From Clostridia bacterium (GTDB taxonomy: Bacteria > Bacillota > Clostridia > Christensenellales > Aristaeellaceae): a DNA stretch of 36,882 bases. Every line of letters starts with the position of its first letter. Position 1 is the stretch's first letter. Shown piece by piece: positions 4,842-33,328 of the stretch. Below the pieces are notes generated by a model. It was given only the letters and a program-made list of their open reading frames with translations, was not told where the DNA came from and searched no databases. The stretch is from assembly GCA_017470945.1 (NCBI GenBank), contig JAFUXH010000147.1, positions 1-36,882 on the forward strand. Reading direction: 5' to 3'. The position numbers and the translations under genes were made by a program.

Positions 4842-5095
4842 AAAATACAAAACGGGCTGATCCTTCCCGAAGGACGGAGCAACCCGTGGTACCACCTTGC
4901 TTCACCGGGCGGCCCAAGCCGCCGCGGCCTTTGAGACGCTGTAACGCGCGCCGCGCGGGCGGACTACTTTGCTTTCATCCGCCGCCCTCCCGGGCGACTT
5001 TCTGCCTTCGCATCCCGGCGGCCTTTCAGCCAGGGGCCGCCTCTCTTTCAGGGCGCGAAAAGCATACTCCTCCCGTTCTATCGGGCCATTTTTCC
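4842..5095 (-). promoter_or_regulatory. T-box riboswitch leader of valS with attenuator terminator
   Basis: Reading the minus strand, the T-box core AAGGTGGTACCACGGG lies at 4898-4883. Its UGGU bulge complements the ACCA end of tRNA-Val. The Stem I distal AG-bulge element, AGAGAG followed by GGCTGAAAG, is at about 5046-5023. An AGTA element pairs into a helix whose 3' side leads to GTC (Val) at 4998-4996, my candidate specifier codon. The competing terminator is ACGGGTTG...CAGCCCGT around a TCCTTC/GAAGGA hairpin (about 4887-4852), followed by TTTTGTATTTT. The motifs are seen directly. The specifier assignment was made by hand folding and is less certain. Confidence 0.92.
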
Positions 5096-5105
5096 TCATT
5101 ATTCC

Positions 5106-5140
5106 GGAAAATGCGGGCAGGCCATGGCCCATCCCGCATT
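5106..5140 (-). terminator. Rho-independent terminator after rpmF
   Basis: On the minus strand AATGCGGG (5140-5133) pairs with CCCGCATT (5117-5110). There is an inner GGC/GCC pairing and a short T-run (ATTTT). It ends the yceD-rpmF unit just before the valS T-box. I found no convincing promoter between it and the T-box, so some read-through may feed valS. Confidence 0.65.
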
Positions 5141-5164
5141 CAGATCCGGCTGAAGAGAAACGCC

Positions 5165-5362
5165 TTACGCGTTCTTCTTCTTTTCTTCGTCGATCACGAT
5201 GACCTGCTTGCCATCATAATAGCCGCAATGCTTGCATACACGATGGGCCAGCTTCATCTTGTGACACTGAGAGCACTCCACGATGGCGGGGGCTTCCAGC
5301 TTCCAATTGGCGCGACGGGAACGGCCGCGGGCCTTCGAAACTTTTCCTTTGGGCAGAGCCAT
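5165..5362 (-). CDS. rpmF: 50S ribosomal protein L32
   Basis: L32 of the large ribosomal subunit, 65 residues. The N-terminus MALPKGKVSKARGRSRRA and the zinc-ribbon cysteines (CSQCH, then CKHCGYY) identify the Cys4 zinc-binding form. The C-terminus is a charged tail ending in KKKNA. It follows yceD after a 3-bp gap, the classic yceD-rpmF arrangement, and shares the strong promoter at 5923-5952. A hairpin terminator lies about 25 bp downstream. Confidence 0.97.
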   Translation of the reverse strand: MALPKGKVSKARGRSRRANWKLEAPAIVECSQCHKMKLAHRVCKHCGYYDGKQVIVIDEEKKKNA

Positions 5363-6971: not shown

Positions 6972-7502
6972 TCATTCGTCAAGATTTTTGATGCTGGTCA
7001 GGTTTTTCACCCGCCATTGGCCGTTTTCCCGGCTCAGCAGCACGGAATACTGGGTGGTCTGCCATTTGGGCGTGCTGCCCCAGCCCAGGGCGCTGGCCGC
7101 CTCCCGGGCGGAGGGCCGCATGCGCCCGTCGATGGCGGGGATGCGCTCCGTCACCGTGGCCCGCGCGCTGTCCTCCCAGGGCCAGCACCACACCCAGTTC
7201 AGGTTGATCCGGTGGTCAAAGCCGGTGATGGTGTAATAATTCTGGTAGGGCGATTCCCCGTTTCGGGCCTGGATCAGGGCGGCGTCCCGCTCCAGATAGG
7301 CCGGGGCGAAGTACTGCGTCAGGTCCTCCTCCTCGCCCATCATCACCACCTGGGCCCGCTTGGCCATGCCGTCCTTTAAGATCACGTAAATATTGGTGGC
7401 GTTCATGGAAAAGTAAAACGCCATCGTCATCAGCCCCAGCACGGCCACCGCCACCATCAGCCGGGAGCACACATACCAAATCAACCGCCGCAGATATTTC
7501 AC
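6972..7502 (-). CDS. Membrane-anchored protein of unknown function
   Basis: I do not recognise this 176-residue protein. One hydrophobic segment near the N-terminus (about residues 12-33, including MVAVAVLGLMTMAFYFSMN) should anchor it, with the rest outside the cytoplasm. The soluble part has Trp/Tyr-rich stretches (NLNWVWCWPWEDSA) and ends with a strand-rich segment (QYSVLLSRENGQWRVKNLT). The start is GTG 7502, with AGGAGGT 4 nt upstream; an earlier TTG has no ribosome site. It is translated just ahead of dus. Its promoter lies between it and the DnaA-box cluster. The extracytoplasmic part might be an NTF2-like or immunoglobulin-like sensor fold, but nothing here proves it. Confidence 0.8.
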   Translation of the reverse strand: MKYLRRLIWYVCSRLMVAVAVLGLMTMAFYFSMNATNIYVILKDGMAKRAQVVMMGEEEDLTQYFAPAYLERDAALIQARNGESPYQNYYTITGFDHRINLNWVWCWPWEDSARATVTERIPAIDGRMRPSAREAASALGWGSTPKWQTTQYSVLLSRENGQWRVKNLTSIKNLDE

Positions 7503-7581
7503 AGGCACCTCCTGGAACGTGGGCAAGGTTCTTGCGTTCAGCGGCTTCTTCCGCCGCCGCGCCGTTGGATCGGCACGGTTT

Positions 7582-7611
7582 ATTATAGCATAATCCGGCG
7601 CCGCTTGTCAC
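7582..7611 (-). promoter_or_regulatory. Promoter of the membrane protein-dus operon
   Basis: Minus-strand GTGACA (7611-7606), an 18-bp spacer and a perfect TATAAT (7587-7582), about 80 bp upstream of the GTG start. Confidence 0.7.
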
Positions 7612-7745
7612 CCCCGCGCGCTTCCCTGTATTTCAACGGGACGATCCGCCGTTTTCTTCCCTTTCGGTGTCTTTTTGGGGCGGAGTAACGCCAAAAAAAG
7701 ATGACGATTCTGTTTCTTTTTTCCGCAGAAAATGTCATTTTTCCC

Positions 7746-8110
7746 TGTGGAAAAGGCCGGGATAATCCTGTGGAAAAAGGGCCCGAATCCGGTCGGATCG
7801 GCTGTGGATAACTTTTTTGCCGTCAAAAGTTATCCACAATCCCGGCGCAAAATCAAGCGGGAAGCGGGTTTTTTCTCTGGTTTTTGTGGATAACTCTGTG
7901 GATAATGTGGAAAACGTCGCGTTTTTCGCGCAACGCATAAAATTGATCCCCCGCATCCCGCCTATACATTTTCCCCGCCCCGATTCTGCCTGGTTTTCCG
8001 CCGAAGGGGCCTGCATACGCCCCTCAGTTTTATGCAAAAATTCATTTTTTCCCGCTGTGGATAATTCCGGGAAAGGCCGGTGGAAAAAAAGTTCAGATTT
8101 TTTTCATTTG
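7746..8110. other. DnaA-box cluster with AT-rich flanks: candidate replication origin (oriC-like)
   Basis: Eight exact matches to the DnaA-box consensus TTWTNCACA lie between 7746 and 8064. Five are the perfect TTATCCACA: 7803-7811, 7830-7838, 7885-7893, 7897-7905 and 8056-8064. Three are TTTTCCACA: 7746-7754, 7769-7777 and 7906-7914. A ninth near match is at 8079-8087. All the exact boxes except 7830-7838 point the same way (minus strand). Three of them (7885, 7897, 7906) are almost contiguous. A/T-rich runs flank the cluster (7681-7745 and 8083-8110). No gene occupies 7612-8161. The motif density is seen directly; origin function is inference. Confidence 0.75.
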
Positions 8111-8161
8111 ACAGCATAACCCGCGCCTCCTTTCCCATAATTTGTTACGGGAGGCGATGCA

Positions 8162-8890
8162 ATGGCAGGCAAACTGAAGCGGAAACTGACAGTTTTGGCG
8201 GCGGCGGGGGCGGTCCTTTTGGCGCTGGCCATCGCCCCCCGGCCCGCCCGGCCCGCCGTTCCCGCCCGACCGGTGGAGCAAAGCGGGACCGTCGGCGCGC
8301 TGTGGGGAAAGACCATCCTGGTGGACGCCGGCCACGGCGGCAGCGACGGCGGGGCCCGGGCCAGAGATTCAGGCGTCTGGGAAAAGGAAATCAACCTGCA
8401 AACCGCCCTGGCCCTGCGGGAGGAACTGACGGCCCACGGCGCAACGGTCCTCATGACCCGGGAAACCGACATGGAATATGACCGCGGGAAACGGGCCGAT
8501 CTGACCGCCCGGCTGGATATCGCCCGGCAAAACGGGGCCGACCTGCTGATCTGCGTGCACATGAACGAATACCGCAGCCGCAGGGAATCCGGCCCGCAGG
8601 TATTTTACCGCGGCGGGCAGGAGCCCAGCCGCCTGCTGGCCGGGGCCATTCAGGACGCCATGATCCAAACGCTGAAGCCGGCCAAGGAGCGGGCCGCCCT
8701 GGCGGGGGATTATTTCATGCTGTCGCTCGATATCCCCTCGGTGCTGGTGGAATGCGGCTTCCTGTCCAACCCCGAGGAGGAAATGCTGCTGCTCACCGCC
8801 GATTACCGGCAGCGGGTGGCCCAGGCCATTTGCCGGGGCGTGATCGAATACTGCGCCCTGACGGAACCCGCCGCTTCCCCGGCTCCATGA
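8162..8890 (+). CDS. cwlD: N-acetylmuramoyl-L-alanine amidase, CwlD type
   Basis: A zinc amidase (Amidase_3) that cleaves the stem peptide from muramic acid. CwlD of spore formers takes part in making muramic-delta-lactam in spore cortex. The 242-residue length matches CwlD. An N-terminal hydrophobic anchor (about 8-25) precedes the catalytic domain. Zinc ligands are visible in VDAGHGGSDGG, in WEKEINL and in ICVHMNEY, and the catalytic Glu in SVLVECGFLSNPEEE. GGGAGG lies 7 nt before the ATG. The gene stands alone, reads rightward, and is flanked by the DnaA-box cluster and a strong bidirectional terminator. The CwlD assignment rather than another amidase rests on length and architecture. Confidence 0.9.
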   Translation: MAGKLKRKLTVLAAAGAVLLALAIAPRPARPAVPARPVEQSGTVGALWGKTILVDAGHGGSDGGARARDSGVWEKEINLQTALALREELTAHGATVLMTRETDMEYDRGKRADLTARLDIARQNGADLLICVHMNEYRSRRESGPQVFYRGGQEPSRLLAGAIQDAMIQTLKPAKERAALAGDYFMLSLDIPSVLVECGFLSNPEEEMLLLTADYRQRVAQAICRGVIEYCALTEPAASPAP

Positions 8891-9011: not shown

Positions 9012-10001
9012 TTACAGCATTTTGATCAGCATATTTTTCTGTTCATCCATTTCCAGGCTCAGCAGGTGTTCCTTTTCCATTTGCTTGAGCACGTCGGAAA
9101 AGCGCTTGAAGCCGATGGATCGTTCCGAATAATCGGGATACGCCGCCTGAATATCGGCCTTGAGGATGGAGGGATTGATGCGCTGGAACCCATCGTCCTT
9201 GTAGTGCTGCAATTGCTCGGTAAAGGCGGCGCGCCAGGAATCCTGGGTCAATTGCTTTTTCTTTTCCTCCGGCGCTTCGGCGTTGAGCGACACCATCACG
9301 TTGTAGTTATCGTTTTTCACTTTGATGGTGCCGAATTTGCCGGCCAGCTTGAACAGCAATTTGCCAAAGGACGCGCAGCCAAAGGATTTTTCGTTGAAAT
9401 CGGGCCGCAGGCGCAGCAGCACTCCCTTCAATTCGCTGGCGTACATTTCGTCCTCGTCGGTCTGCTCGGACAGGATGCCCTCCAGCAGCTTATTGAGCCC
9501 GGCGTCGTCCAGGGGCTCGTCCTTGGATTGTTTCTGGCTCCGGCGCTTATCCCGCGTCACGGAGGATACCGATTCCAGGAACTGGAATTCGTTGCAGGCG
9601 TTGATAAAAATGCTGCTGGCCACTTCGCTGCGGCTGATGCCCAGCACGAACTTGCCCATAGATTTCAGCCGGCCCACCAGGGGGGTATAATCGCTGTCGC
9701 CGGATACGATGCAGAAGGAATCGATCAGCGGGTTGGTATAAGCCACCTCCAGGGCGTCGATCACCAGCATGATATCGGCGTTATTTTTCTGGGAAAAGCC
9801 ATAGCGAATGGAGGGCACCACGGTAAACGTGTTGGACAGGAGCACCTCCTTCAAATCGCTGAACCGGTCGGTGTACCCATACACCTTGCCCAGCAGGATA
9901 TCCCCGCGGATCTTCACCTTTTCCAAAATATTGTTCAGCGTGGCCGCCTTGGCCCCGCAGTTTTCCAAATCCACAAATAAAGCAAAACGGGATGTACTCA
10001 A
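9012..10001 (-). CDS. NYN (PIN-like) ribonuclease domain protein with two OST-HTH/LOTUS domains
   Basis: 329 residues. The N-terminal NYN domain (about 1-150, LabA/DUF88 type) shows the acidic active-site set: FVDLEN (Asp11), NADIMLVIDAL (Asp76, Asp82) and SGDSDYTPL (Asp102, Asp104). A charged linker (RDKRRSQKQSKDE) leads to a first winged-helix OST-HTH/LOTUS domain (about 175-235) and a second at about 265-325 (INPSILKADIQAAYPDYSER, then KRFSDVLKQME). LOTUS domains bind RNA, so this is probably an RNA nuclease; its target is unknown. The start is TTG 10001, supported by AAGGAGG 7 nt upstream. It is the last gene of the DUF1292-uvrC-GNAT run, 74 bp after the acetyltransferase. Confidence 0.9.
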   Translation of the reverse strand: MSTSRFALFVDLENCGAKAATLNNILEKVKIRGDILLGKVYGYTDRFSDLKEVLLSNTFTVVPSIRYGFSQKNNADIMLVIDALEVAYTNPLIDSFCIVSGDSDYTPLVGRLKSMGKFVLGISRSEVASSIFINACNEFQFLESVSSVTRDKRRSQKQSKDEPLDDAGLNKLLEGILSEQTDEDEMYASELKGVLLRLRPDFNEKSFGCASFGKLLFKLAGKFGTIKVKNDNYNVMVSLNAEAPEEKKKQLTQDSWRAAFTEQLQHYKDDGFQRINPSILKADIQAAYPDYSERSIGFKRFSDVLKQMEKEHLLSLEMDEQKNMLIKML

Positions 10002-10075
10002 AATTTTTCCTCCTTACGAAACTGATAGAATCCCGGCCGCAGCCCGCGGCCCGGATCCATAGAAAACCCGTTGAT

Positions 10076-10843
10076 TCATTGATTCATTTCGTTCACGATC
10101 CGGGTCGGCTTGGCCGTCATTTCCACCCAGGCGGGAATGAACCCGCTTTTGATCGCGTTCCTAACCGACCTGATGTTGGACCAGGCAGAGCAGTAAAACG
10201 GCGTTTTGCCGCGGCGGATGATTTCCCTGGCCAGCCTGCTGGTGAGCGACGAGGCGATCCCTTGGCGCCTGTAGGCCGGCAGCACGTCCACGCCGATCTG
10301 CCACATCGTTTCGCAGTCGGCGGAGCAGCCGGCCAGCCCCACCAGCTTTCCCCGGTCATAGGCGCCGACGCCCAGCACGTCCAATTGCTTCCGTTCTTTG
10401 CACAGGGCGTTGCTCCATTCCGGCACGTACAGCGGCTCAAAATCCGGCTGCTCCAGCACCTTCGTTTCATACGCGCAGGGCAGATCGGGGATCGCGCCGA
10501 CATCCGGCAGATAGTACTCCGCCATGAAGCAAATCTGATGCCCTCTTTCGGCCAGCCGTTCGTTGAGCCAGTGCATGTTCGGCGTTTCAAAGCAATGATA
10601 AAACGTGAATTTGTCAAGGTAGGCCGCCACGATATCCGCCGCTTCGTCCGTCGCCCCGGCCACGATGTTGCTGCCATAGGAAACCAGGTTGCAGGTGACG
10701 GGCTGCTGAATATACTTCCGCGCGTTTTTCCCCAGGCGGAGGGGCACCACCACGTTGTGATCCCGAAGGAAATCCCGGGCGTCGCAGCCGAGGTCCTCGG
10801 CGGATTGCAGCATGGCCGTTTCCAAAATATCGCGGTTTGTCAT
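10076..10843 (-). CDS. GNAT-family N-acetyltransferase (two-part, 255 aa)
   Basis: The C-terminal half (about 130-255) is a GNAT domain with the acetyl-CoA loop DVLPAYRRQGIASSLTSRLA and the later CSAWSNIRSVRNAIKSGF. The N-terminal half (to about residue 125) is a less familiar extension that begins with TNRDILETAMLQSAEDLGC. ATG 10843 follows GGGAGG at 10-nt spacing; an ATG at 10861 overlaps the ribosome site and is less likely. It sits 50 bp downstream of uvrC. The substrate is unknown. Confidence 0.85.
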   Translation of the reverse strand: MTNRDILETAMLQSAEDLGCDARDFLRDHNVVVPLRLGKNARKYIQQPVTCNLVSYGSNIVAGATDEAADIVAAYLDKFTFYHCFETPNMHWLNERLAERGHQICFMAEYYLPDVGAIPDLPCAYETKVLEQPDFEPLYVPEWSNALCKERKQLDVLGVGAYDRGKLVGLAGCSADCETMWQIGVDVLPAYRRQGIASSLTSRLAREIIRRGKTPFYCSAWSNIRSVRNAIKSGFIPAWVEMTAKPTRIVNEMNQ

Positions 10844-10893
10844 GTGTTTGGGTCCTCCCATTTTTTTGCTTCTGCCCGGCGCTTTCCTTTGGC

Positions 10894-12744
10894 TTATTCG
10901 GCGTCGGCCGCCGCTTCCTCCTCCGGATGGGCCCAGCGGTACACCGCCTTCACGGCGGGGGCGGTCATGCCGGGCACCTGGGCCAATTCCTCCTCCCCCG
11001 CTTCCCGGATGGCCTTGATGCTTTTGAAATACTGCAGCAGGGCCCGGCGGCGGGCGGGGCCGATGCCGGGGATATCCTCCAGGGCGCTGTGGGTCTGGGC
11101 TTTCCCGCGCAGGCCCCGGTGGTAGGTGATGGCGAAGCGGTGGGCCTCATCGCGGATGCGCTGGATCAGGTGCAGCACCGGGGAATGGTGATCCAGCAGG
11201 ATGCTTTCCTCCTGCCCCGGCAGGAAAATTTCCTCCAGGCGCTTGGCCAGGCCGAACATGGGCACGTCGGCCCCGGCAGCCAGCATGGCCTCCCGGGCGA
11301 AGGCCAATTGCTCCGGGCCGCCGTCGATCAGCACCAAATCGGGCAGAGGCCACCGATCCTTGGGGTCCTCGGCAAAGCACCGGCGGAAGCGCCGGCCCAG
11401 CACCTCGTTCATGGAGGCGAAATCATTGGCGCCTTCGAAGGATTTGATGCGGTAGTGCCGATATTCCTTGGGGGCGGGGGCCCCGTCAATGAACACCACC
11501 ATCGACGCCACGTTCAGCATGCCCTGGGTGTTGCTGATATCGTAGCCCTCGATGCGCCGGGGCGTTTCGGCCAGGCCCAGGATGCGGCCCAATTCCTCCG
11601 CCGCGCCTACGGTGCGCTCGTACTGCACCTGCTTCTTGGCGTTGCGCTTTTCCAGCGCGTCCCGGGCGTTTTTTTCGGCCAGCAGCGTCAGGGCGCGCTT
11701 GTCGCCCCGCTGGGGAATGGTCAAGGTGCAGGCGCTTCCCCGCTTCTGCCGCAGCCATTCCTCCAGATCGTCGCCGATGATATCCCCCGGCAGGGAGGGG
11801 CACAGCACCTCCCGGGCAGGCCGCCGGTCGCCGTCGTAAAACTGGATGATGAAATCCAGCAGCACCTCCCCCGGATCCTCCTTGCCCTCCCGGGGCAGGG
11901 CGAAGGAATCGCCCCCCAGGATGTGGCCGTTGCGGATGTAAAGCACCTGCGCCATGGCATCCAGATCGTCCTGGGCCAGGGCGAACACATCCTGCTCCAC
12001 CCCGTTGGTCTGGATGGCCTGCTGCCGCTGCATCAGCCCTTCAATGTCCCGCAATTGATCCCGCAGCTGGGCCGCCTTCTCAAATTGCAGCTGGGCGGCG
12101 GCAGCGCGCATATCCCGCTCGATCCCGGCCGTCACATCCTGGTATTTCCCGCCCAGGAAGGCAATCACCCGCTGCACCGCCGCGTCGTACGCCGCCTGGG
12201 TGCATTTGCCGCCGCAGGGGCCCAGGCACTTGCCGATTTCATAATTCATGCAGGGCCGCTTGGGCGTTTTCAGGGGCAGGGCGTGCTTGCACGTGCGCAG
12301 GGGGAACAATTTGCGCAGGGCCTCCAGCACCTCCCGCACCGCCGTGGCGCCGATGTAGGGGCCGAAATACTTCGCCCCGTCGTTCACCTGCCGCCGGGCC
12401 AGGGTCACCCGGGGGTAAGGCTCGTTCAGATCGATGCGGATGTAGGGGTAGTGCTTGTCATCCTTGAGCAGGATGTTGTAATAGGGCTTGTGCAGCTTGA
12501 TCAGGTTGCATTCCAGGATCAGCGCTTCCAGGTTGGTGCGGCAAAGCATGATATCGAAATCCTCGATATGCGAAATCATGGCCGCCACCTTGGGGGTGTG
12601 GTCGCGGCCATGAAAATAGCTTCGCACGCGGTTTTTCAGATTGACGGCTTTGCCGACGTAAATGATTTTCCCTTGCTCCTTCATCAGGTAGCAGCCGGGC
12701 GAATCGGAAAGCAATTTCAGCTTCCGGGCGATGGTTTCATTCAT
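10894..12744 (-). CDS. uvrC: Excinuclease ABC subunit C
   Basis: The dual-incision nuclease of nucleotide excision repair, 616 residues. Domains in order: GIY-YIG nuclease (about 10-95, SPGCYLMKEQGKIIYVGKA), a Cys-rich cluster (CKHALPL, then CMNYEIGKCLGPCGGKC), a UVR motif that contacts UvrB (about 200-235), the RNase H-like C-terminal nuclease (EGYDISNTQG, then LVLIDGGPEQLAFA), and helix-hairpin-helix motifs (DIPGIGPARRRALLQYF; QVPGMTAPAVKAVY). It starts 15 bp after the DUF1292 gene and probably shares its promoter. The ribosome site is weak, so coupling to the upstream gene is likely. Confidence 0.97.
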   Translation of the reverse strand: MNETIARKLKLLSDSPGCYLMKEQGKIIYVGKAVNLKNRVRSYFHGRDHTPKVAAMISHIEDFDIMLCRTNLEALILECNLIKLHKPYYNILLKDDKHYPYIRIDLNEPYPRVTLARRQVNDGAKYFGPYIGATAVREVLEALRKLFPLRTCKHALPLKTPKRPCMNYEIGKCLGPCGGKCTQAAYDAAVQRVIAFLGGKYQDVTAGIERDMRAAAAQLQFEKAAQLRDQLRDIEGLMQRQQAIQTNGVEQDVFALAQDDLDAMAQVLYIRNGHILGGDSFALPREGKEDPGEVLLDFIIQFYDGDRRPAREVLCPSLPGDIIGDDLEEWLRQKRGSACTLTIPQRGDKRALTLLAEKNARDALEKRNAKKQVQYERTVGAAEELGRILGLAETPRRIEGYDISNTQGMLNVASMVVFIDGAPAPKEYRHYRIKSFEGANDFASMNEVLGRRFRRCFAEDPKDRWPLPDLVLIDGGPEQLAFAREAMLAAGADVPMFGLAKRLEEIFLPGQEESILLDHHSPVLHLIQRIRDEAHRFAITYHRGLRGKAQTHSALEDIPGIGPARRRALLQYFKSIKAIREAGEEELAQVPGMTAPAVKAVYRWAHPEEEAAADAE

Positions 12745-12759
12745 GGAAAACCCCGATGA

Positions 12760-13056
12760 TCATTCCTCGTCGTCCGCTTCGTCGAAGGTGGCTTCCACCA
12801 CCTGGATCAATTGCTCCATCAAATCCTCGTCCACGGGAACGAATTCTTCCATATCCTCTTCCCCGTTTTCCCCTTCGATGGGCTGCACCTTCATCACGTA
12901 CCGGGAAACCTCCTCGCCCTCGGGCAGGTCGATTTCGTCGCTGAGCAGCACGTATTCATCCCCATTATAGAAGAAATAACGCTCCACGATCAGCCGAAGC
13001 ACCTCGCCGTCCTCGCCCTCCAGCTCAATGATATCCAGATCTTCCTGATTTGCCAT
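12760..13056 (-). CDS. DUF1292 family protein
   Basis: A 98-residue, very acidic protein. The pattern LEGEDGEVLRLIVERYFFYNG followed by DEYVLLSDE is typical of DUF1292 (YrzB-like) proteins common in Bacillota, whose function is unknown. The C-terminus is strongly acidic (EEDMEEF, DEADDEE). AAAGGAG at 8-nt spacing sets the ATG at 13056. It opens the operon with uvrC. Confidence 0.9.
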   Translation of the reverse strand: MANQEDLDIIELEGEDGEVLRLIVERYFFYNGDEYVLLSDEIDLPEGEEVSRYVMKVQPIEGENGEEDMEEFVPVDEDLMEQLIQVVEATFDEADDEE

Positions 13057-13098
13057 GGAAATCGCTCCTTTCTTCCGGGCCTCTCTTGGGCCGGTTCT

Positions 13099-13127
13099 AT
13101 TATATCCTAAATTCAAAAAAAGCACAA
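13099..13127 (-). promoter_or_regulatory. Promoter of the DUF1292-uvrC operon
   Basis: Minus-strand TTGTGC (13127-13122), a 17-bp spacer and a perfect TATAAT (13104-13099), 42 bp upstream of the DUF1292 start. Confidence 0.7.
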
Positions 13128-13143
13128 GCGGGGGAATTCGCAT

Positions 13144-13182
13144 GAAAAAGCCCCGGGTTCCGCGGATGGCGGGCCCGGGGCG
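13144..13182 (-). terminator. Terminator of the first secreted-protein gene
   Basis: GCCCCGGG (13150-13157) pairs with CCCGGGGC (13174-13181). On the minus strand the hairpin is followed by five T. It ends the gene at 13207-14415. Confidence 0.85.
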
Positions 13183-13206
13183 GCTTGGCGCGCGGCGCCG
13201 ATCAGG

Positions 13207-14415
13207 TCATTTCTTGAAATACACCGTCATACCGCTGCTGCCGTCATAGTAGCTCACGCTTCCCAATTCGGTTTTGCCGGAGGTGATGGTATAGGTGGTG
13301 GTGCTGTAGGACGTCTTTTTCTTGATCGTCAGGCCGGCCTTTTTCAGGGCGTTGATATAGCTGGTCACCAGCTTTTCCATACTGCTGTCGCTGTACCGGG
13401 CGTAATAATAGTAGTAGTATTCCACGACCTTGCCGTTGACGTTCTTACCTTCGGAAACACTGCTCAGCACCACGTCCACATAGCTTTCGGGCTTGGGCAG
13501 CTTGCTCTTTTCCTTGAAATAGGTCACCTTCTTCGCGGTGGTTTTCCGAATGGCGTCAGCTTTCTTTTCCGTAATATTGACGCTGAAGAAGTAATCGCCC
13601 TCCGCTTCCGTAGAGGCATATTCGGCGAACTGATCGAAGAAATTGATGCGCACTTTGGCGGTTTTGAAGGATTTGGCCAAGCTTTCCGAAATCTCGGCAA
13701 ACATGAACCATTGCGTGCTGGTCTTTGCATCGACGTCATAATTCAGATAGGTTTTCTCCTCGGGCAAGACCCTGATTTCAAAGGGATACGTTTCTCCGTT
13801 GTCGAAGGTCACCTGGGCATGCATCGAATAGACGGCCATCGAGCTGCTGCCGGGGTTTTCCACCGTGCCGTTGAGGACAAAGTATTTCGTGCCCTTCTTC
13901 ACGTCGAGGGTGTAATGATTTTCGGGCAGCACTTCGTACATGGAGCGGTACAGCGCGCAGTTGTCGATGGAGAAACGGATGAAATCCAGCTCCACCTGTT
14001 CCTTCCACTTCAAGGCGTAGGTTTTGCTGTCGGCCTCCGCCTTAGCCTTCTTGGCGGCTTCCTCCGCCTCCTGCCGCCGGCGGGCGTCCACGCTGACCTG
14101 CAGATAGGTAGCGCCGTTGGCCCACAGCTGCGGATCGCCCTGATTGGAGGACAGGGTGATTTTCAATTCCCGGGTGCCGTACTGCTCATAGGTCAGCACG
14201 ATGGTCCGATCGGTGATCGTCCAGGTGCCTTCGTGGCTGGCACCTTGGCTGCTGGTATATACCCCCACGCCGGTATCCAAAAATTCCAGGGACGAGCCGT
14301 TTTCAGCGACCCACTTTTCCGCCACGATGAAGCTGATATCCGTCTCCTCCGCCCACGCGGGCAGCGCGGTCAGCAAAAGAACCGCCAACAAAAGCACAGA
14401 AATCCATCTTTTCAT
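13207..14415 (-). CDS. Secreted protein of unknown function, paralogue of the next gene
   Basis: 402 residues with a clear signal peptide (cleavage likely after ALPAWA). An N-terminal module (about 25-105) looks lipocalin-like: a short strand series with LEFLDTGVGVYTSSQGA and GTWTITDRTIVLTYEQYG. A short Ala/Lys/Glu-rich helix (RRRQEAEEAAKKAKAEA) leads to a long domain (about 135-400) shared with the 14586-15488 product: LKWKEQVELDFIRFSIDNCA, YFVLNGTVENP, VTFDNGETYPFE, YFKEKSKLPKPESYVDV, and a Tyr run (EYYYYYYARYSDSS). ATG 14415 is used; a TTG codon precedes it. It has its own promoter and terminator. I recognise no function. An exported structural or binding role is possible. Confidence 0.85.
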   Translation of the reverse strand: MKRWISVLLLAVLLLTALPAWAEETDISFIVAEKWVAENGSSLEFLDTGVGVYTSSQGASHEGTWTITDRTIVLTYEQYGTRELKITLSSNQGDPQLWANGATYLQVSVDARRRQEAEEAAKKAKAEADSKTYALKWKEQVELDFIRFSIDNCALYRSMYEVLPENHYTLDVKKGTKYFVLNGTVENPGSSSMAVYSMHAQVTFDNGETYPFEIRVLPEEKTYLNYDVDAKTSTQWFMFAEISESLAKSFKTAKVRINFFDQFAEYASTEAEGDYFFSVNITEKKADAIRKTTAKKVTYFKEKSKLPKPESYVDVVLSSVSEGKNVNGKVVEYYYYYYARYSDSSMEKLVTSYINALKKAGLTIKKKTSYSTTTYTITSGKTELGSVSYYDGSSGMTVYFKK

Positions 14416-14466
14416 CAATGAGATACCCCTTTCCTTTCGATCCTGCAGATCGATTACGCTGGTTAT

Positions 14467-14495
14467 ATTCTATCACATGTTTCCAGGAATGACAA
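14467..14495 (-). promoter_or_regulatory. Promoter of the secreted-protein gene at 13207-14415
   Basis: Minus-strand TTGTCA (14495-14490), a 17-bp spacer and TAGAAT (14472-14467). The paralogue next door has the same layout and the same -10. Confidence 0.65.
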
Positions 14496-14526
14496 TCCTT
14501 GCAAGGGCGGAGAGAAGCGGCGCGAT

Positions 14527-14559
14527 CAAATAAAAGAATCCCGGGCGCAGCGCCCGGGA
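14527..14559 (-). terminator. Terminator of the second secreted-protein gene
   Basis: TCCCGGGCG (14539-14547) pairs with CGCCCGGGA (14551-14559) across a CAG loop. It is followed on the minus strand by TTCTTTTATTTG. Confidence 0.85.
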
Positions 14560-14585
14560 AACACAGGCAGAATCCGATTTGAAAA

Positions 14586-15488
14586 TTACCGCTTGATCGT
14601 AATCGTCACGGAAGGGTTGCCTTCGCTGTAAATCACGTGAGCCAGCGTGGCTTTGCCGGATTGGACGAGATAATCGGTCATGATGGAGGTCGTGGTTTTC
14701 TTCACGCTGAGGCCCTCTTGTTTCAGGGCGGCGATGTAGGCGTCCACCAGCTCGGTGATGGAAGCGTCGCTATACTTGGCGTAATAGTAGTAATTGCACT
14801 GGATGATCGTGCGGTTTTCATCCTTTTTCTCGAATTTGCTGTTCAGGATCACATCCACATAGCTTTCCGGCCGGGGCAGCTTGCTCTTTTCCTTGAAATA
14901 GACCAGCTTTTTTTCCGCCGTTTGCTGGATGGAAGCGGCCTTTTTCTCGGTGATGTTGACGCTGTAGAAATAATCGCCGTCCTGATCCGTTTCCGCGTTC
15001 TTTTTCAGGCGATCGTAGAAATTGACGCGCACCTTGGCGGATTTGAACGTATCGGCCAGCTCCGCGGGGATCTGGGCGATTAGGAACCATTTCTGGCTGG
15101 CATTCCCCGCCAATTCGGCGTCGAGGGCCATTTGATTTTCCTTCAGGGTCTTGAATTCGAAGGGATAGGCTTCGCCGTTATCGAACGTTACCTGGCCAAA
15201 CAGGTTGTCAAAGCTCAGCGCGGCCTTCTTGGGGTTTTCCACGGTGCCGTTCATCACGAAGTACTTCGTATCCTCCAGCGCCGCGAAGGTGTTGGGGTAA
15301 TTGTCGATCACTTCCAGCGGGGAACGGTACAAAGCGCAGTTATCGATGCTGAAGCGGATGAAATCCAATTTCACCTCTTCCTTCCACTTCAGCGCATTGA
15401 CCTTGACGGGCGCATCCCCGCTGGCCCAGGCGGGCAGCGCGGAGGCAAGCAGAACCACCAGCAGCAGCACGGAAACGATTTTTTTCAT
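14586..15488 (-). CDS. Secreted protein of unknown function (short paralogue)
   Basis: 300 residues with a signal peptide (MKKIVSVLLLVVLLASALPAWA is its span, residues 1-22). The mature part is the same domain as in the 13207-14415 product, without the lipocalin-like module: LKWKEEVKLDFIRFSIDNCA, YFVMNGTVENP, YFKEKSKLPRPESYVDV and CNYYYYAKYSDAS recur in the same order. The pair is a tandem duplication in which one copy gained or lost about 110 residues. It has its own promoter and terminator, so the copies can be controlled separately. Function unknown. Confidence 0.85.
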   Translation of the reverse strand: MKKIVSVLLLVVLLASALPAWASGDAPVKVNALKWKEEVKLDFIRFSIDNCALYRSPLEVIDNYPNTFAALEDTKYFVMNGTVENPKKAALSFDNLFGQVTFDNGEAYPFEFKTLKENQMALDAELAGNASQKWFLIAQIPAELADTFKSAKVRVNFYDRLKKNAETDQDGDYFYSVNITEKKAASIQQTAEKKLVYFKEKSKLPRPESYVDVILNSKFEKKDENRTIIQCNYYYYAKYSDASITELVDAYIAALKQEGLSVKKTTTSIMTDYLVQSGKATLAHVIYSEGNPSVTITIKR

Positions 15489-15542
15489 CTGCGGTTTACC
15501 CCTTTCTTTATCACTCGGGTGAAACGCTTGTCAGTTTTTTGT

Positions 15543-15571
15543 ATTCTACCACATTCCCGGCAAAAATGCAA
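15543..15571 (-). promoter_or_regulatory. Promoter of the secreted-protein gene at 14586-15488
   Basis: Minus-strand TTGCAT (15571-15566), a 17-bp spacer and TAGAAT (15548-15543). Confidence 0.65.
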
Positions 15572-15587
15572 TCTTCCCGGCGCGGTC

Positions 15588-16796
15588 TTATTGGAATTTG
15601 GCCCATTGGATCTGCTCGGTGGGCACGTTGACGGTTTTTCCTCCCTCGATGGTGTAGCTGACGATGCCGGCCTCAACCTGCTTGACCCCGCTGACGCCCG
15701 CCAAGCTCAATTCATCCTTGGCGTTGTTGCGGGTTTTGCCGGGGGGCAGGGTGATCTTTTTCACGTTCTGGGAAAATACGGTTTGGCCGTTGACGGCGAT
15801 GGGCTTGCCCTTCTTATCCAGCAGGCGGAACACCACGCTGATGCCGGTGACGGTGTATTCGCAATCCACGTTCCGAAAAAAGAAGCGGATCGACTGAGCC
15901 CCTTTGGCCGATTTGAGAAAGGAATCCGACAGCGTGATGGCGGGCCGCCAGGGGATGGCCTTCGCATACAGCTTCTGCTGGGTTTTTTCATCGGCCATGC
16001 CGGAGGGCGACAGGCCCGCCTTCCTTTGGAATTTCTTCACGGCCTCCACCACGGCCTTGCTGTATTTGCCGTCCGCCGTGCCGGTCAGGTAACCCTGCTC
16101 GATCAGGTACCGTTGCAGTTGCTTCACCGCGTCGCCGGAGGATTTGGCGTTCAATTCCGTATAGACCGGTTCGGCCTCCGGCTTTTTGTCGCTCACCTGG
16201 ATTTCCGCCGCCGGTATCGTCACGTATTTCATGCGGTCCAGGGTATCCATGGCGTCGTACACCTTGGCGATGTGGCCGTTGTATTCCGCCACGATCAGCT
16301 TGATCAGGCTGCGCTTTTCCTCCGTCAGGATGATTTCATAGGTGTTTTTGGCGCTTCCGCAGGTGATGCGCACGGCTTTACTTTTCGCCATATCCTGAAA
16401 CATGGCGATGGAATCGGGGCCCACGGCGATATTGAAGGCGCTGGGGTTCTCCGCCACCCCCGTTTTTTTCAGGTTGGACTGCAGCATGACCTGATACACC
16501 TTCTGATCGGTGGTTACGGTGAGGGTGGTGTTGCCTTTATTGCCGTTGTGGGTAAAATACACCACCAGCAGCGGCAATTCCTTTTTCTCATCCGTCGACC
16601 GGTCGGCGTAGATCATGCCGATGGAACCGGGGGCGTACCGCTCGTCGCCGTACAGCAGGGTGACGGACCGATCGGTATGGGCCTCGTAGATCTTGGTTTT
16701 CTTCGGCGCTTTGTCAAAGCGGCTCAACGCCGCCTGGGCAGGCAGGGCGGAAAACAGCGCCAATAGCAGCGCCAACAGGCAAACGGCTTTTTTCAC
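15588..16796 (-). CDS. Secreted protein with a central peptidoglycan-binding domain
   Basis: 402 residues. Signal peptide with cleavage likely after ALPAQA. After an unrecognised N-terminal region (about 22-200) there is a PG_binding_1 domain at about 225-285, with GDAVKQLQRYLIEQGYLTG, then ADGKYSKAVVEAVKKFQRKA and KTQQKLYA. The C-terminal third (about 290-402) is strand-rich (SIRFFFRNVDCEYTVTGISV, VFRLLDKKGKPIAVNG) and resembles extracellular immunoglobulin-like folds. GTG 16796 is the start, preceded by GGAAAGGA. It lies 23 bp after ybaK and is probably the third gene of the rpiB operon. It likely binds cell wall; no catalytic residues are evident. Confidence 0.85.
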   Translation of the reverse strand: MKKAVCLLALLLALFSALPAQAALSRFDKAPKKTKIYEAHTDRSVTLLYGDERYAPGSIGMIYADRSTDEKKELPLLVVYFTHNGNKGNTTLTVTTDQKVYQVMLQSNLKKTGVAENPSAFNIAVGPDSIAMFQDMAKSKAVRITCGSAKNTYEIILTEEKRSLIKLIVAEYNGHIAKVYDAMDTLDRMKYVTIPAAEIQVSDKKPEAEPVYTELNAKSSGDAVKQLQRYLIEQGYLTGTADGKYSKAVVEAVKKFQRKAGLSPSGMADEKTQQKLYAKAIPWRPAITLSDSFLKSAKGAQSIRFFFRNVDCEYTVTGISVVFRLLDKKGKPIAVNGQTVFSQNVKKITLPPGKTRNNAKDELSLAGVSGVKQVEAGIVSYTIEGGKTVNVPTEQIQWAKFQ

Positions 16797-16819
16797 GGGC
16801 TTTCCTTTCCAAATATGGG

Positions 16820-17296
16820 TCACACGGTCAAATCGGCGCTGGTCACGGGGATGGCCCTGCGAAGATCGGCAAGGGTACATTCCACCTGGTAGCCGATCTT
16901 TCCGGCGCTGAAGAGGATGGTGCCGCAATCTTCCGCAGTGAAATGGATGAAGGTGGGGAAGGGCTTTTTCATCCCGATGGGCGAGCAGCCCCCATGGATA
17001 TAGCCGGTCAGGGGCAGCAGCTCCTTGCTCTTGATCATTTCGACGGCCTTTTCCCCCACGGCGGCGGCGGCCTTTTTCAGGTCCAGTTCCTCCGCTACCG
17101 GGATCATGAACACGAAATGATTCCTGCTTTTGCCCACGGTGACCAGGGTTTTGAAGGTACAGGCGGGGTCCTCCCCCAGGGCGCGGGCCACCTCCACCCC
17201 GCTGACGGCGCCAGTATCCCCGTAATAATGATCGGCATAGGGGATCTTCAGCCGATCCAGCGTGCGCATCACGTTGGTTTTTTCCTGCTTAGCCAT
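16820..17296 (-). CDS. ybaK: Cys-tRNA(Pro)/Cys-tRNA(Cys) deacylase YbaK/EbsC family
   Basis: A trans-editing enzyme that hydrolyses mischarged Cys-tRNA(Pro). 158 residues, normal length. The family lysine lies in CTFKTLVTVG, and KSKELLPLTGYIHGGCSPIG and FSAGKIGYQVE are typical. ATG 17296 overlaps the rpiB stop by one base (TAATG), so translation is coupled. The link with rpiB is one of transcription, not of an obvious shared pathway. Confidence 0.93.
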   Translation of the reverse strand: MAKQEKTNVMRTLDRLKIPYADHYYGDTGAVSGVEVARALGEDPACTFKTLVTVGKSRNHFVFMIPVAEELDLKKAAAAVGEKAVEMIKSKELLPLTGYIHGGCSPIGMKKPFPTFIHFTAEDCGTILFSAGKIGYQVECTLADLRRAIPVTSADLTV

Positions 17297-17748
17297 TATT
17301 CCACAGGCTTTCCTTCCTCGATCAACCGGAACATATCGATCCGGCGCTGGTGGCGGCCGCCCTCAAATTCGGTGGTCAGCCAGCCCTCCACGATCAGCCG
17401 GGCGTTTTCCGGGGCGATCACCCGGCCGCCCAGGGCCAGCATGTTGGAATCGTTGTGGGCGCGGCTGAGGGTGGCGCTGTAATAATCGGAGCAGCAACAG
17501 CACCGGATGCCCTTCACCTTGTTGGCGGCGATGGAAATGCCCACCCCCGTGCCGCACAGGATGATGCCCCGGTCGCACGCGCCCTGCGCCACGGCGTTGG
17601 CCGCCCGCACGGCAAAGATGGGATAATCCCGGGGGTCGCCCTCGTTGATGCCGTAATCGATATATTCGATGCCCTTTTCCTTCAGCAGTTCCTCAATGGG
17701 GCCCTTCAGCACGGCCCCCGCCGGGTCGCAGGCAATGGCGATTTTCAT
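17296..17748 (-). CDS. rpiB: RpiB/LacA/LacB-family sugar-phosphate isomerase
   Basis: Ribose-5-phosphate isomerase B family, 150 residues as usual. The catalytic cysteine (Cys65 in ILCGTGVGISIAANK), His98 in RAHNDSNML and the phosphate-binding GGRHQRR are kept. Two oddities: the usual DH near the N-terminus (Asp-His of DHAG) is Asp8-Pro9 here, and four cysteines stand in a row at 83-86 (GIRCCCCSDYY). The Pro change may alter substrate choice among aldose phosphates, so the exact substrate is uncertain. The start at 17748 follows GGAAAGGAAGG; the frame remains open upstream through the serS leader, which is not coding. Confidence 0.88.
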   Translation of the reverse strand: MKIAIACDPAGAVLKGPIEELLKEKGIEYIDYGINEGDPRDYPIFAVRAANAVAQGACDRGIILCGTGVGISIAANKVKGIRCCCCSDYYSATLSRAHNDSNMLALGGRVIAPENARLIVEGWLTTEFEGGRHQRRIDMFRLIEEGKPVE

Positions 17749-29696: not shown

Positions 29697-31220
29697 ATGC
29701 AGCAAGCGCCGGAAAACACCGTGCTGGTGGGGGAATTCCAGCGGGATCTGGCCCTGATCCGCCGTTACGCCCACGCCGAGGAAAGCGAGGACGTGATCAT
29801 CCATTCCTTCCGCGCCATGGGCCGCGACGCGGCGGTGATTTACGTGGACGGCCTGGCCGACGACCGAAAAATCCAGCATTTTCTGCTGACGCCGCTGCTG
29901 GGCGCCGCCGCGCCTGCCGACGATACGCCGCTGGATACCTACCTGACGCAATACGTGCTGCCCCTCTCCGCCCTGTCCCCCACCGCCCAATTGCCGGCGC
30001 TGCTGCAGCGGGTGTTCAGCGGCGACGCCGCCCTGATCCTGGACGCCATGCCCGGCGCGCTGATCGCCGACGTGAAGGGCTTTGCCCACCGCGCCCCCGG
30101 GGAGCCGATCAACGAATCGGTGGTCATGGGGCCCCACGAGGGGTTCAACGAATCCCTGCGGGACAACGTGGTGCTGATCCGGCGGCTGATGCGCACGCCC
30201 CGGCTGGTCAGCGAAGGGATCAGCATCGGCAATGAGATCCCCAGCCGGCTGTGCCTGCTGCACCTGGACGGCGTGGCCCGGCCGGAAACGCTGGAAGAAT
30301 TGAAGCGCCGCATCGCGGGCTGCAACATCGATTACGTGTCCTCCATCGGCATGCTGGAGCAATTGATCGAGGATCGGCCCTTTTCCCTGCTGCCCCAGTG
30401 CGTGGCCACCGAGCGGCCCGACCGGGCGGTCAGTTTTCTGAACGAGGGGCAGATCCTGATCGTGATGGAAAATTCCCCCACGGTGCTGGCCCTGCCCGCC
30501 GCCTTCCTGCATTTGTTCCACGCCCCGGATGATACGGCCCTGCGCTGGCCCTACGGCACGTTCCTACGGTATCTGCGCTTATTTGGCCTGCTGATCGCGC
30601 TGATCCTGCCGGGGCTTTTCATTTGCCTGACGGTATATCACCCGGAGGGCATGTCCCTGTCGCTGCTGACCAGCGTGACGGAAAGCCAGGAGCGGGTGCC
30701 CTTTTCCCTGTTCACCTCCACCCTGCTGATGCTGCTGATTTTCAGCCTGATCAGCGAGGCCGGGGCCCGGGTGCCCGGGGCCATGGGCAGCAGCATTTCC
30801 ATCGTGGGCGGGCTGATCCTGGGCCAGGCCGCGGTGGAGGCCGATCTGATCAGCCCTCTGGTGATTATCGTGGTGGCCATCAGCGGCCTGGGCAGCTACG
30901 CCGTGCCGGTGTTTCCTTTCACCCTGGCGCTGCGCATCGCCCAATTGGCCCTGGTTTTCCTGTCCGGCCTGGCGGGCTTTCCGGGGCTGATTTTGGGGGC
31001 GTTTCTGCTGCTGCGGCATCTGTGCGGCCTGACCAGCCTGCGCACTCCCTTCTTCGCCCCCATTGCGCCCCGGCGCGTCGCCAATCCCGATGGGATCGCC
31101 CGGCTGCCGGTGTGGCGACAGCGGCTGCGGGGCATGCTGGCGCAGCAAAACGCCCTGCACAGGATCAACGGCGTTATGCGGGCCTGGGATCGCCCGAGGG
31201 AGGAGCGGGATGGTAACTGA
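29697..31220 (+). CDS. gerA: Spore germination receptor A subunit (GerA/GerKA family)
   Basis: 507 residues. The A subunit of an inner-membrane nutrient receptor in spores. The N-terminal soluble part (about 1-290) contains VIYVDGLADDRKIQHFLL, then NESVVMGPHEGFNESLRDNV and TLEELKRRIAGCNIDYV, all typical. The C-terminal half has several membrane helices (about 300-460), including LRLFGLLIALILPGLFICL and SSISIVGGLILGQAAVEADL. ATG 29697 follows GGAAGGAAGG. It overlaps gerB by 11 bp. The name indicates family position, not which nutrient is sensed. Confidence 0.95.
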   Translation: MQQAPENTVLVGEFQRDLALIRRYAHAEESEDVIIHSFRAMGRDAAVIYVDGLADDRKIQHFLLTPLLGAAAPADDTPLDTYLTQYVLPLSALSPTAQLPALLQRVFSGDAALILDAMPGALIADVKGFAHRAPGEPINESVVMGPHEGFNESLRDNVVLIRRLMRTPRLVSEGISIGNEIPSRLCLLHLDGVARPETLEELKRRIAGCNIDYVSSIGMLEQLIEDRPFSLLPQCVATERPDRAVSFLNEGQILIVMENSPTVLALPAAFLHLFHAPDDTALRWPYGTFLRYLRLFGLLIALILPGLFICLTVYHPEGMSLSLLTSVTESQERVPFSLFTSTLLMLLIFSLISEAGARVPGAMGSSISIVGGLILGQAAVEADLISPLVIIVVAISGLGSYAVPVFPFTLALRIAQLALVFLSGLAGFPGLILGAFLLLRHLCGLTSLRTPFFAPIAPRRVANPDGIARLPVWRQRLRGMLAQQNALHRINGVMRAWDRPREERDGN

Positions 31221-32229
31221 CGGAATAAGAAAAGAAGCGGAACGGGGCGCGCGCCTGACGGAGGGGCTGCACCTGTACGCCCAAGTGACGATCGGCCTGT
31301 GCCTGTTCCTGACGGAATGGGCCGGCACGCCGGGATGGATCAGCATCCTGCTGACGCTGCCCTGGCTGCTGCTGTGCCTGGTTTTACGAAAGCGGGTCAA
31401 AGCCCGGCCCGGCAAGACAGCTTGGCTGATCGCCGCCGTCGCCGCCTGGCTGGATGGGGCGCTGGCCTATTACGCCCTGTGCGTCCTGTGCCGCGGTCTG
31501 CTGCCCGATCGGAACCCCTGGCTGGTGGCCGGCATGCTGGCGGCGTTCGCCATCGCCGCGGGCGGGAGGTGCGGCGTGTTCCCCATTCTGGCCCGGCCCG
31601 TGGCTCCGCTGATCATTGTGCCGCTGCTGTACTGCGCCGGGGCGGCCCTACCCCACGCCCGCGTCGGCCATTTGTTTCCCCTGCTGGGCCGGGGCGGCGC
31701 TTCCATCGGCTGGGCAGCGGTATGGATGTGCGGGTGCGTATCCACCGCCGCGCTGCCCGCTTCCCCCTGGAAAACCGGCGACGGTCACTCCTCCCCCGGA
31801 ACGATCGTGGCTTTCCTGATCGCCGGCGCGGCGACGGCGCTGCTATACGCCCTGCTGCTGCCCTATCTCGCCTTGACCCGGGCCGACGGCTTGGCGGAAA
31901 AGTGGATGCTGCCAACCCATCTGTCCGGCCCCATCGCCATCTGGCCGCTGCTGATCATGGCCCTCTTGCTGCTCCTGTTCTTTTCCCTGTCCTTCAGCCT
32001 GGCCCGGACTGCCGATGCCCTGGCCCGTGCCCAGGGGCGCTTCTCCCCCTCCCGTCTAACGGTTTGCGTGCCGGCGCTGCTCATGCTGCCCCTGGGGGCG
32101 GTGATGACGGCGGGCGTTCGGCAGGCCTTGATCGTTTCCTCCCCCATCCGGGCGATGCTGACGCTGGCGCTGCTGATGGGCCTGAACCTGAAAAAAAGCC
32201 CGGTGAAGGGGGCGGAGCATCATGCGTAA
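31210..32229 (+). CDS. gerB: Spore germination receptor B subunit (GerB-type permease)
   Basis: 339 residues, about ten hydrophobic segments across nearly the full length, as in the APC-like spore permeases that form the nutrient-binding B subunit. GLHLYAQVTIGLCLFL, WISILLTLPWLLLCLVL and AIWPLLIMALLLLLFFSLSF are examples. Sequence identity to model B subunits looks low by eye, so the call leans on its place between gerA and gerC and on the membrane layout. ATG 31210 overlaps gerA; GGGAGGAGCGG serves as the ribosome site. Confidence 0.85.
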   Translation: MVTDGIRKEAERGARLTEGLHLYAQVTIGLCLFLTEWAGTPGWISILLTLPWLLLCLVLRKRVKARPGKTAWLIAAVAAWLDGALAYYALCVLCRGLLPDRNPWLVAGMLAAFAIAAGGRCGVFPILARPVAPLIIVPLLYCAGAALPHARVGHLFPLLGRGGASIGWAAVWMCGCVSTAALPASPWKTGDGHSSPGTIVAFLIAGAATALLYALLLPYLALTRADGLAEKWMLPTHLSGPIAIWPLLIMALLLLLFFSLSFSLARTADALARAQGRFSPSRLTVCVPALLMLPLGAVMTAGVRQALIVSSPIRAMLTLALLMGLNLKKSPVKGAEHHA

Positions 32230-33328
32230 ATCCGCCGCGCTGCTGTTGATCCTTGCCTTCCTGCTGACCGGCTGCGCGGGCCGACAAATGGAAGAGGAAT
32301 TGCTGGTGATCGTGCTGGCGGTGGACGAGCAGGACGGCTGGACCCGCCTGGCCGTCAAGGCCCCCGCCGCCGCCACCCCGGATGAGGAGCAAAAGGGCTA
32401 CCTGACCTTGGAAGCCTCCGGCCGCAGCCTGGCCGAGGCGGTGGTGCTGCTCAACGCTTCCACCCCCCGGAAGCTGAATTTTTCCCAGGTGAGGGAAATC
32501 GTGCTGGGCATCGAGGCCTGCCAAAGCGCCGCCTTCCCCGCCCTGCTGCGGCAGATCAACGCCCTGCCCCGGATCCGCAGGGCCGCCCGGCTCATCGTGT
32601 GCAACGGCAGCGCCTGTGCATTGGCCGCCCAGCAAAAGCCCTACATGGGCCTGCGCCTGAGCCGCTATGCCGACGATACCCTGGCCGATTCCGCCAGCAA
32701 GGGCTTCACCCCCGATACCACCCTGGCCGAAACGCTGCGGGATCTGGGCGGCGGGCTGCGCGATCCGCTGCTGATCCTGGGGGCCGTCAACGATTTTTCC
32801 AACGCATCGCCCGCCCAGAGCCCCGTTCTGCGGGCCGACGCCGGAAATATGGCCCGAAAAAGCGCCGATCCCATCGATCTGTTTGGCGCGGCCGTCACCG
32901 ACGGGGCCGCCGTCACCGGCACGCTGAACGGCGAGGAAATGGCGCTGCTGCACCTGCTCACCGGCGCGGGGCATTCCTACACCGCCAATTTGACCGGCCA
33001 GCCCGCCACCCTGTACGCCAGGACCGCCGCCACCCTGACGGTGGATCTGACCGCCCGGCCCATCCGCCTGGGGGTGCAATTGCTGTGCGACGTCCGGGGG
33101 TATCCCAGCGAACCGCCCGACCTGAATAGCCTCGAAAATCAGATCGGCGGCGAAATCCGAACGCTGATCCAAAAGCTGCAAGGCCTGGACAGCGACGCGC
33201 TGGGGTTCGGCGATCTGGCGGTGCGGCGTTTTTGGACGATCGGGGCGTGGGAAAGCTTGAATTTCAAGGGCTTGTACCGGGAGGCGGCCATCGACATCCG
33301 GCTTTCGCTGCGCCTCCTGGCCCCTTAA
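32222..33328 (+). CDS. gerC: Spore germination receptor C subunit (GerC lipoprotein)
   Basis: 368 residues. A lipoprotein signal with the lipobox LLTGC (Cys at about 17) anchors it to the spore inner membrane. The GerC pattern follows: ELLVIVLAVDEQDGWTRLAV near the N-terminus, FSQVREIVLGIEA, and later GAAVTDGAAVTGTLNGEEMA with a C-terminal domain (about 250-368). It overlaps gerB by 8 bp. Its last 4 bp overlap the convergent bofA gene. Confidence 0.92.
   Translation: MRKSAALLLILAFLLTGCAGRQMEEELLVIVLAVDEQDGWTRLAVKAPAAATPDEEQKGYLTLEASGRSLAEAVVLLNASTPRKLNFSQVREIVLGIEACQSAAFPALLRQINALPRIRRAARLIVCNGSACALAAQQKPYMGLRLSRYADDTLADSASKGFTPDTTLAETLRDLGGGLRDPLLILGAVNDFSNASPAQSPVLRADAGNMARKSADPIDLFGAAVTDGAAVTGTLNGEEMALLHLLTGAGHSYTANLTGQPATLYARTAATLTVDLTARPIRLGVQLLCDVRGYPSEPPDLNSLENQIGGEIRTLIQKLQGLDSDALGFGDLAVRRFWTIGAWESLNFKGLYREAAIDIRLSLRLLAP

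Follow-up and report, generated by a model that had tools for sequence, protein, structure and literature searches.

A DnaA-box cluster conserved upstream of cwlD is probably not a chromosomal origin and may act as a DnaA sink and switch

A dense array of DnaA boxes with no dnaA gene nearby raises the question of whether it marks the chromosomal origin at an unusual place, as the first-pass annotation proposed, or is a DnaA-binding site of another kind. The window, i.e., the whole stretch of 36,882 nucleotides that was analysed, corresponds to contig C124 in a draft assembly that totals 2.985 Mb (165 contigs, 95% complete, 8.4% contamination). It contains exactly eight matches to TTWTNCACA, all of them in positions 7746-8064 (319 bp). 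Dinucleotide-shuffled versions of the window held a mean of 1.24 matches and a maximum of 4 in 100 shuffles, which places the density of the cluster far above chance. On recount, the figures given at first (eight boxes in 319 bp, five perfect, seven in one orientation and three near-contiguous at 7885-7914) proved exact. The surrounding gap had also been described as gene-free: two 100-aa ORFs lie inside 7526-8162, and neither was scored as a gene by a codon-based caller. The features of the locus are as follows.

6972..7526, minus strand: divergent gene of 184 aa without a Pfam match, the left neighbour of the cluster
7746..8064, both strands: DnaA-box cluster of eight TTWTNCACA (7746-, 7769-, 7803-, 7830+, 7885-, 7897-, 7906-, 8056-)
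7803..7838: perfect inverted repeat with 14-bp arms, an 8-bp loop and one box per arm, read from the sequence
7885..7914, minus strand: core of three boxes spaced by 12 and 9 bp
8056..8064, minus strand: solitary conserved box, the closest of the eight to cwlD
8108..8154, plus strand: conserved TTGACAGCATA ... CATAAT and GGGAGG block before the cwlD start, from conserved alignment columns
8162..8890, plus strand: cwlD-type N-acetylmuramoyl-L-alanine amidase (Amidase_3; Pfam PF01520, E 9.4e-42)

The model hit of the last gene is Amidase_3 itself; the name cwlD was given in the first-pass annotation, and we take it to be correct. The cluster gap is bounded by the starts of the leftward gene (7526) and of cwlD (8162). 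Seven of the eight boxes are on the minus strand and one (7830) is on the plus strand. Five read TTATCCACA (7803-, 7830+, 7885-, 7897- and 8056-) and three read TTTTCCACA (7746-, 7769- and 7906-). The genome as a whole has 25 exact copies of TTATCCACA, including the five inside the cluster. The arms of the inverted repeat at 7803-7838, a feature absent from the earlier annotation, are TGTGGATAACTTTT and AAAAGTTATCCACA. The block at 8108..8154 is the probable promoter and ribosome-binding region of cwlD, judged by its sequence, and it may resemble sporulation-type promoters. The best 40-bp stretch in the cwlD spacer of the window is 72% A+T.

The boxes were strongly conserved in related genomes, and the lack of conservation that had been named in advance as something that would refute the first-pass interpretation was not observed. 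A cwlD probe matched an orthologue in 26 of the 28 other same-genus genomes searched (no match in G003 and G011). All 27 same-genus genomes with a cwlD match, the own genome included, had 4-8 boxes in the 610-640 bp upstream of the gene, and the order and spacing of the boxes were similar in most of them. In the alignment of 28 spacers (the 27 genus genomes and G035 of the same family), pairwise identity was 0.80 for box columns vs 0.43 for other spacer columns (p 1e-22), as expected for selection on the boxes. The box at 7885-7893 was identical in 27 of the 28 spacers, and TTATCCACA stood at the aligned position of box 8056-8064 in 19. The inverted-repeat boxes 7803 and 7830 had identities of 0.94 and 0.87, and box 7746 was not conserved (0.35). 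Of the 26 matches in G020, 25 were listed, and within these at least three exact boxes occurred together at the cwlD cluster only, which counts against the non-origin reading.

The persisting unit is the cluster together with cwlD, while the flanking genes differ between genomes. Among the 25 same-genus genomes with a called neighbour, the 184-aa gene was the immediate left neighbour in 16 and another gene was found in 9; in G022, the 184-aa gene was one position further out. The right neighbours also differed. These calls come from our own gene caller, which gave none for two genomes, and single calls may be wrong. Other parts of the window deserve a brief description. The genes of the stretch 9012-17748, among them an NYN gene and uvrC, point leftward here, and the uvrC- and NYN-like genes of G013 point rightward, which suggests a local inversion beside the cluster. 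Within it, two adjacent leftward genes (13207-15488; 389 and 300 aa) of similar sequence and without a Pfam match look like diverged paralogues. A rightward run of three genes at 29697-33328 looks like a spore-germination receptor operon; this would fit a spore-forming organism that has cwlD.

Family and order labels (f, g) used below are those of the genome collection. An exact box pair was found in 165 of 297 genomes of the order; its reversed control gave one match among those listed (G060). From the listed box-pair matches, 53 genomes were picked, of which 43 have a cwlD match. In this biased set, where each genome carries the pair somewhere, at least two boxes stood upstream of cwlD in 26 of the 43; 16 had none in the stretches and coordinates examined, and one could not be oriented. 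The 26 positive genomes represent families f1, f3, f8, f10, f16, f19 and f24. Two further families had boxes upstream of cwlD as well, namely f22 (three in G056) and f23 (two in G057). Many genomes of other families retain two to five boxes at cwlD, and the pair with 12-bp spacing recurs there. Within the picked set, boxes were not found at cwlD in six f28 genomes, five f14 genomes, f4 and others; the six f28 genomes have the box pair near dnaA instead. Among named genomes, at least two boxes were present at 8 of 80 cwlD loci, which are the eight best matches and include Candidatus Ventricola intestinavium, and at none of the remaining 72, to which the loci from Paenibacillus and Clostridium belong.

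Does the cluster mark the start of the chromosome? The statement that no dnaA gene lies nearby holds for the contig of the window. The own dnaA is on contig C81, beside genes that we take to be parA- and parB-like, and has a single exact box upstream. In G013, dnaA and the cluster are on one contig, about 30 kb apart. A check for a box cluster at dnaA gave 1-3 boxes near the start at the same-genus loci listed (L080 not in full), and the repeat TAGTAGTA, which consists of DnaA-trios, was absent from all 17 dnaA spacers; the dnaA locus was therefore rejected as the origin. A dnaN match was obtained in 18 of the 23 same-genus genomes searched, the own genome being among the 23; dnaN was not found in G000 (the own genome), G004, G015, G017 and G018. 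Since dnaN is missing from its 95% complete assembly, the origin of the own genome cannot be read directly, and assemblies of this genus seem apt to lack the origin contig. In all 16 same-genus genomes having both genes, dnaN and dnaA were on different contigs, and both were found on contigs other than that of the cluster, except for dnaA of G013.

Of the 18 same-genus dnaN spacers, 17 contained the TAGTAGTA repeat, compared with 0 of 28 cwlD spacers; shuffled dnaN spacers contained it in 81 of 3600 cases. The dnaN spacers, with 0-8 boxes each, often show a box, 3-4 bases, CTACTACTACTA and then an ATATAT-like stretch. In its strict form (a box, at most 16 bases and at least three trios), the arrangement occurred in 10 of 18 dnaN spacers vs 0 of 28 cwlD spacers. 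The layout of box, short spacer and DnaA-trios is that of the basal unwinding system as presented in the available text of PMC8287927, and it was not found at the cwlD spacers, which do have the cluster of DnaA boxes that is also expected of an oriC. In the same text, 15% of genomes are without a recognised trio, and the published motif is looser than the one used here. The oriC2 of C. difficile, as far as described in the excerpted PMC7561715, has the same box-trio layout as the dnaN spacers. The A+T content of the best 40-bp stretch was 72-93% in the 28 cwlD spacers and 70-82% in the 18 dnaN spacers.

A box-trio search of 60 relatives gave matches in 19 of 28 same-genus genomes. By position, 14 were just upstream of dnaN and 5 on contigs without a located dnaN; there were none on any cwlD contig and none in the own genome. 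The number of matches in the 28 same-genus genomes was close to that of the reversed control (37 vs 31), so only the position is informative, and the counts per genome were dropped as evidence. Of nine genomes outside the genus, four had TAGTAGTA in front of dnaN and none had it in front of cwlD; a weak run resembling trios is present at the cwlD of G058. Based on these motifs, the chromosome start most likely lies next to the sliding-clamp gene dnaN, elsewhere than the cluster.

Several observations concern the wider surroundings of these genes. In G269 and G183, two genomes of the same family with two contigs each, dnaA and dnaN are 1.2-1.3 Mb apart (1,306,370 and 2,590,813 on contig C1 of G269; 458,394 and 1,671,073 on contig C1 of G183), and the split of dnaA from dnaN may be family-wide. 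G183 also has a box pair 345 bp upstream of its dnaN match. Further clusters of three, four and three boxes are found in G226, another genome of this family (contig C11, 72092-72133 and 109685-113038) within 50 kb of dnaN (117.8 kb). The own genome has, near the end of contig C5 (27098-27130), three tandem box-like sites with 12-bp spacing: TTATCCACA GAG TTGTCCACA GAG TTATCCACA.

GC skew was dropped as the sole arbiter, being too noisy within the genus, and for this reason the motif test with the trios was added. Skew corrected for gene direction was calculated for the 11 genus genomes and G226 that had four or more genes on both sides, 17 of 29 genomes having too few genes, and several of the both-side estimates were within one standard deviation of zero. 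A switch from minus to plus at the cluster was seen in two of the 12 genomes (G013 and G001). The sign was the same on both sides in six, minus in four (the window among them) and plus in two, and the remaining four showed other combinations. The right-minus-left difference was positive in 8 of 12, and in G015 and G226 a negative skew gave way to a value near zero. The skew switch tends to be close to the cluster but does not reliably coincide with it. In G013, the cumulative minimum was 3.5 kb from the cluster (block permutation p 0.0038); this apparent V shape at first favoured oriC and was outweighed by the trios, by G042 and by the same-sign genomes.

Skew was also read in genomes outside the genus, namely G042, G109, G058, G265 and G291. 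One contig of G042 carries both clusters. Its skew minimum is at 15,200 and the dnaN trios are at 15,210, while the cwlD boxes (4,925-5,308) are located 10 kb away inside skew of one sign; only 4.9 kb of the contig remains to the left of the cwlD cluster. The minimum was just upstream of dnaN in G109 and at dnaN in G058. The minimum of G265 fell in the dnaA-dnaN stretch, but only 2 kb away from where the contig ends; a second, local dip ended at the cwlD boxes. The minimum of G291 was on the dnaN contig, 8 kb from dnaN. The cwlD pair lies in one-sign skew over 160 kb in G291 and 80 kb in G109, which contradicts an order-wide origin at the cluster. Outside the genus, G226 and G253 had minima near their cwlD boxes, and G286 was ambiguous. 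The skew check suggested in the first-pass annotation thus gave a divided answer: the minima at dnaN in G042, G109 and G058 speak against oriC, and G013, G001, G226 and G253 have theirs, or a switch, at the cwlD boxes.

In three of nine sources searched, a 5S rRNA gene less than 1 kb downstream of cwlD is oriented toward the cluster, each time at a contig end (L096 in G007, L109 in G026 and L111 in G020). The gene is presumably the end of an rRNA operon, and a head-on rRNA operon next to an origin would be unusual.

That the genus relocated its chromosomal origin from dnaA and dnaN to cwlD is therefore unlikely. The cluster is the densest box array found in the genome, its boxes are kept in each of the 27 genus genomes where cwlD was matched, and the skew behaviour of G013, G001, G015 and G226 would agree with such a move. 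Against this stand the contrast in TAGTAGTA between the cwlD and dnaN spacers, the same-sign skew in half of the 12 genomes with several values within one standard deviation of zero, the 5S rRNA genes reading toward the cluster, and the minima at dnaN. Hence, of what was first proposed (oriC, a second origin-like element or a DnaA-titrating site), the headline reading as oriC was not supported, and the option of a DnaA-binding or DnaA-titrating site, which is predicted from the motifs, fits all the data.

We consider it probable that the locus is a conserved DnaA-box cluster of the cwlD upstream region, distinct from the origin, with the roles of a sink and a switch. With the genus origin placed at dnaN, it has several high-match boxes outside the origin. 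Judging from the arrangement of the boxes, DnaA would bind the paired and tandem sites strongly and cooperatively. The bound complex could serve as a sink for DnaA and could also switch the cwlD promoter just downstream, in which case the output of cwlD would track fork passage or how much DnaA is available. Control of cwlD is likely an added role, because the link of the cluster to cwlD is fixed.

It is also conceivable, though improbable in our view, that the cluster serves transcription only, with DnaA or a protein recognising the same site regulating cwlD and titration being irrelevant. The cluster stays with cwlD where the neighbours differ, the promoter-like block adjoins it, and the two to five boxes in many genomes of other families would suit such a function; however, 4-8 boxes in 300 bp seem to us beyond the needs of a simple promoter. 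It is highly doubtful that dnaN holds the unwinding half of a bipartite origin and the cluster is its remote half: a trio-free half in C. difficile (PMC7561715) and the bipartite origin of B. subtilis (PMC5295017) appear in the available parts of these sources, and the two clusters of G042 are 10 kb apart, but the halves described there flank one gene, and the distance between the loci here, as measured from contig ends, is no less than about 20 kb in G013 and exceeds 100 kb in G291 and G109.

Returning to the sink and switch, a bolder picture can be offered tentatively for much of the order, with nine families represented in the genomes at hand. DnaA at cwlD would be a replication-coupled switch, the cluster would gate a sporulation or cell-wall amidase by DnaA availability, and in the genus dnaA would have left an origin that remained at dnaN. 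We hold this to be less likely than not.

DnaA-box clusters outside the origin are a known kind of element, described in a few model bacteria. In the limited collection searched, we found no report of a cluster linked to cwlD or of its conservation over several families, and no paper combining "DnaA box" and "Christensenella". A strongly selected cluster tied to one gene across several families offers a comparative handle on whether such elements are sinks, switches or both. It also carries a warning for annotation: in a draft genome, the origin may lie elsewhere than at the array where boxes are densest, and the DnaA-trios here point to dnaN.

Among known systems, the oriC of clostridia and Bacillus (boxes, DnaA-trios and an AT-rich element) resembles the cluster in being a dense conserved array in an intergenic gap; unlike it, the cluster has no TAGTAGTA in 28 spacers and no consistent skew switch. 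The datA locus of E. coli is likewise non-coding and outside oriC. According to the portions consulted of PMC5295017 and PMC4585315, it consists of five boxes and lowers active DnaA; it needs IHF and a defined box-IHF spacing, and it belongs to another phylum and another place. DARS1 and DARS2 of E. coli, which have a reactivating function, possess a three-box core of conserved spacing in the excerpt of PMC4585315, which the three-box core of the cluster may resemble.

The closest comparison is with the DnaA-box clusters (DBCs) of B. subtilis, in which boxes are also grouped outside oriC (PMC5295017 and PMC4447404, as excerpted). Removal of six of them together led to early initiation (PMC5295017, in part), which suggests that they hold back free DnaA. 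The review text available in the same source regards the clusters as having no significant part in initiation and notes a strong effect only for the removal of all six. B. subtilis DnaA also regulates genes at several strong sites, and sda is activated (PMC4447404, in the text at hand). The strong sites given there are sda, ywlC, ywcI, yydA, trmE, dnaA, dnaA/dnaN and gcp/ydiF, a list without cwlD. Unlike the B. subtilis DBCs, the cluster described here is tied to cwlD and is found in another order, in a genus whose origin apparently lies at dnaN without dnaA.
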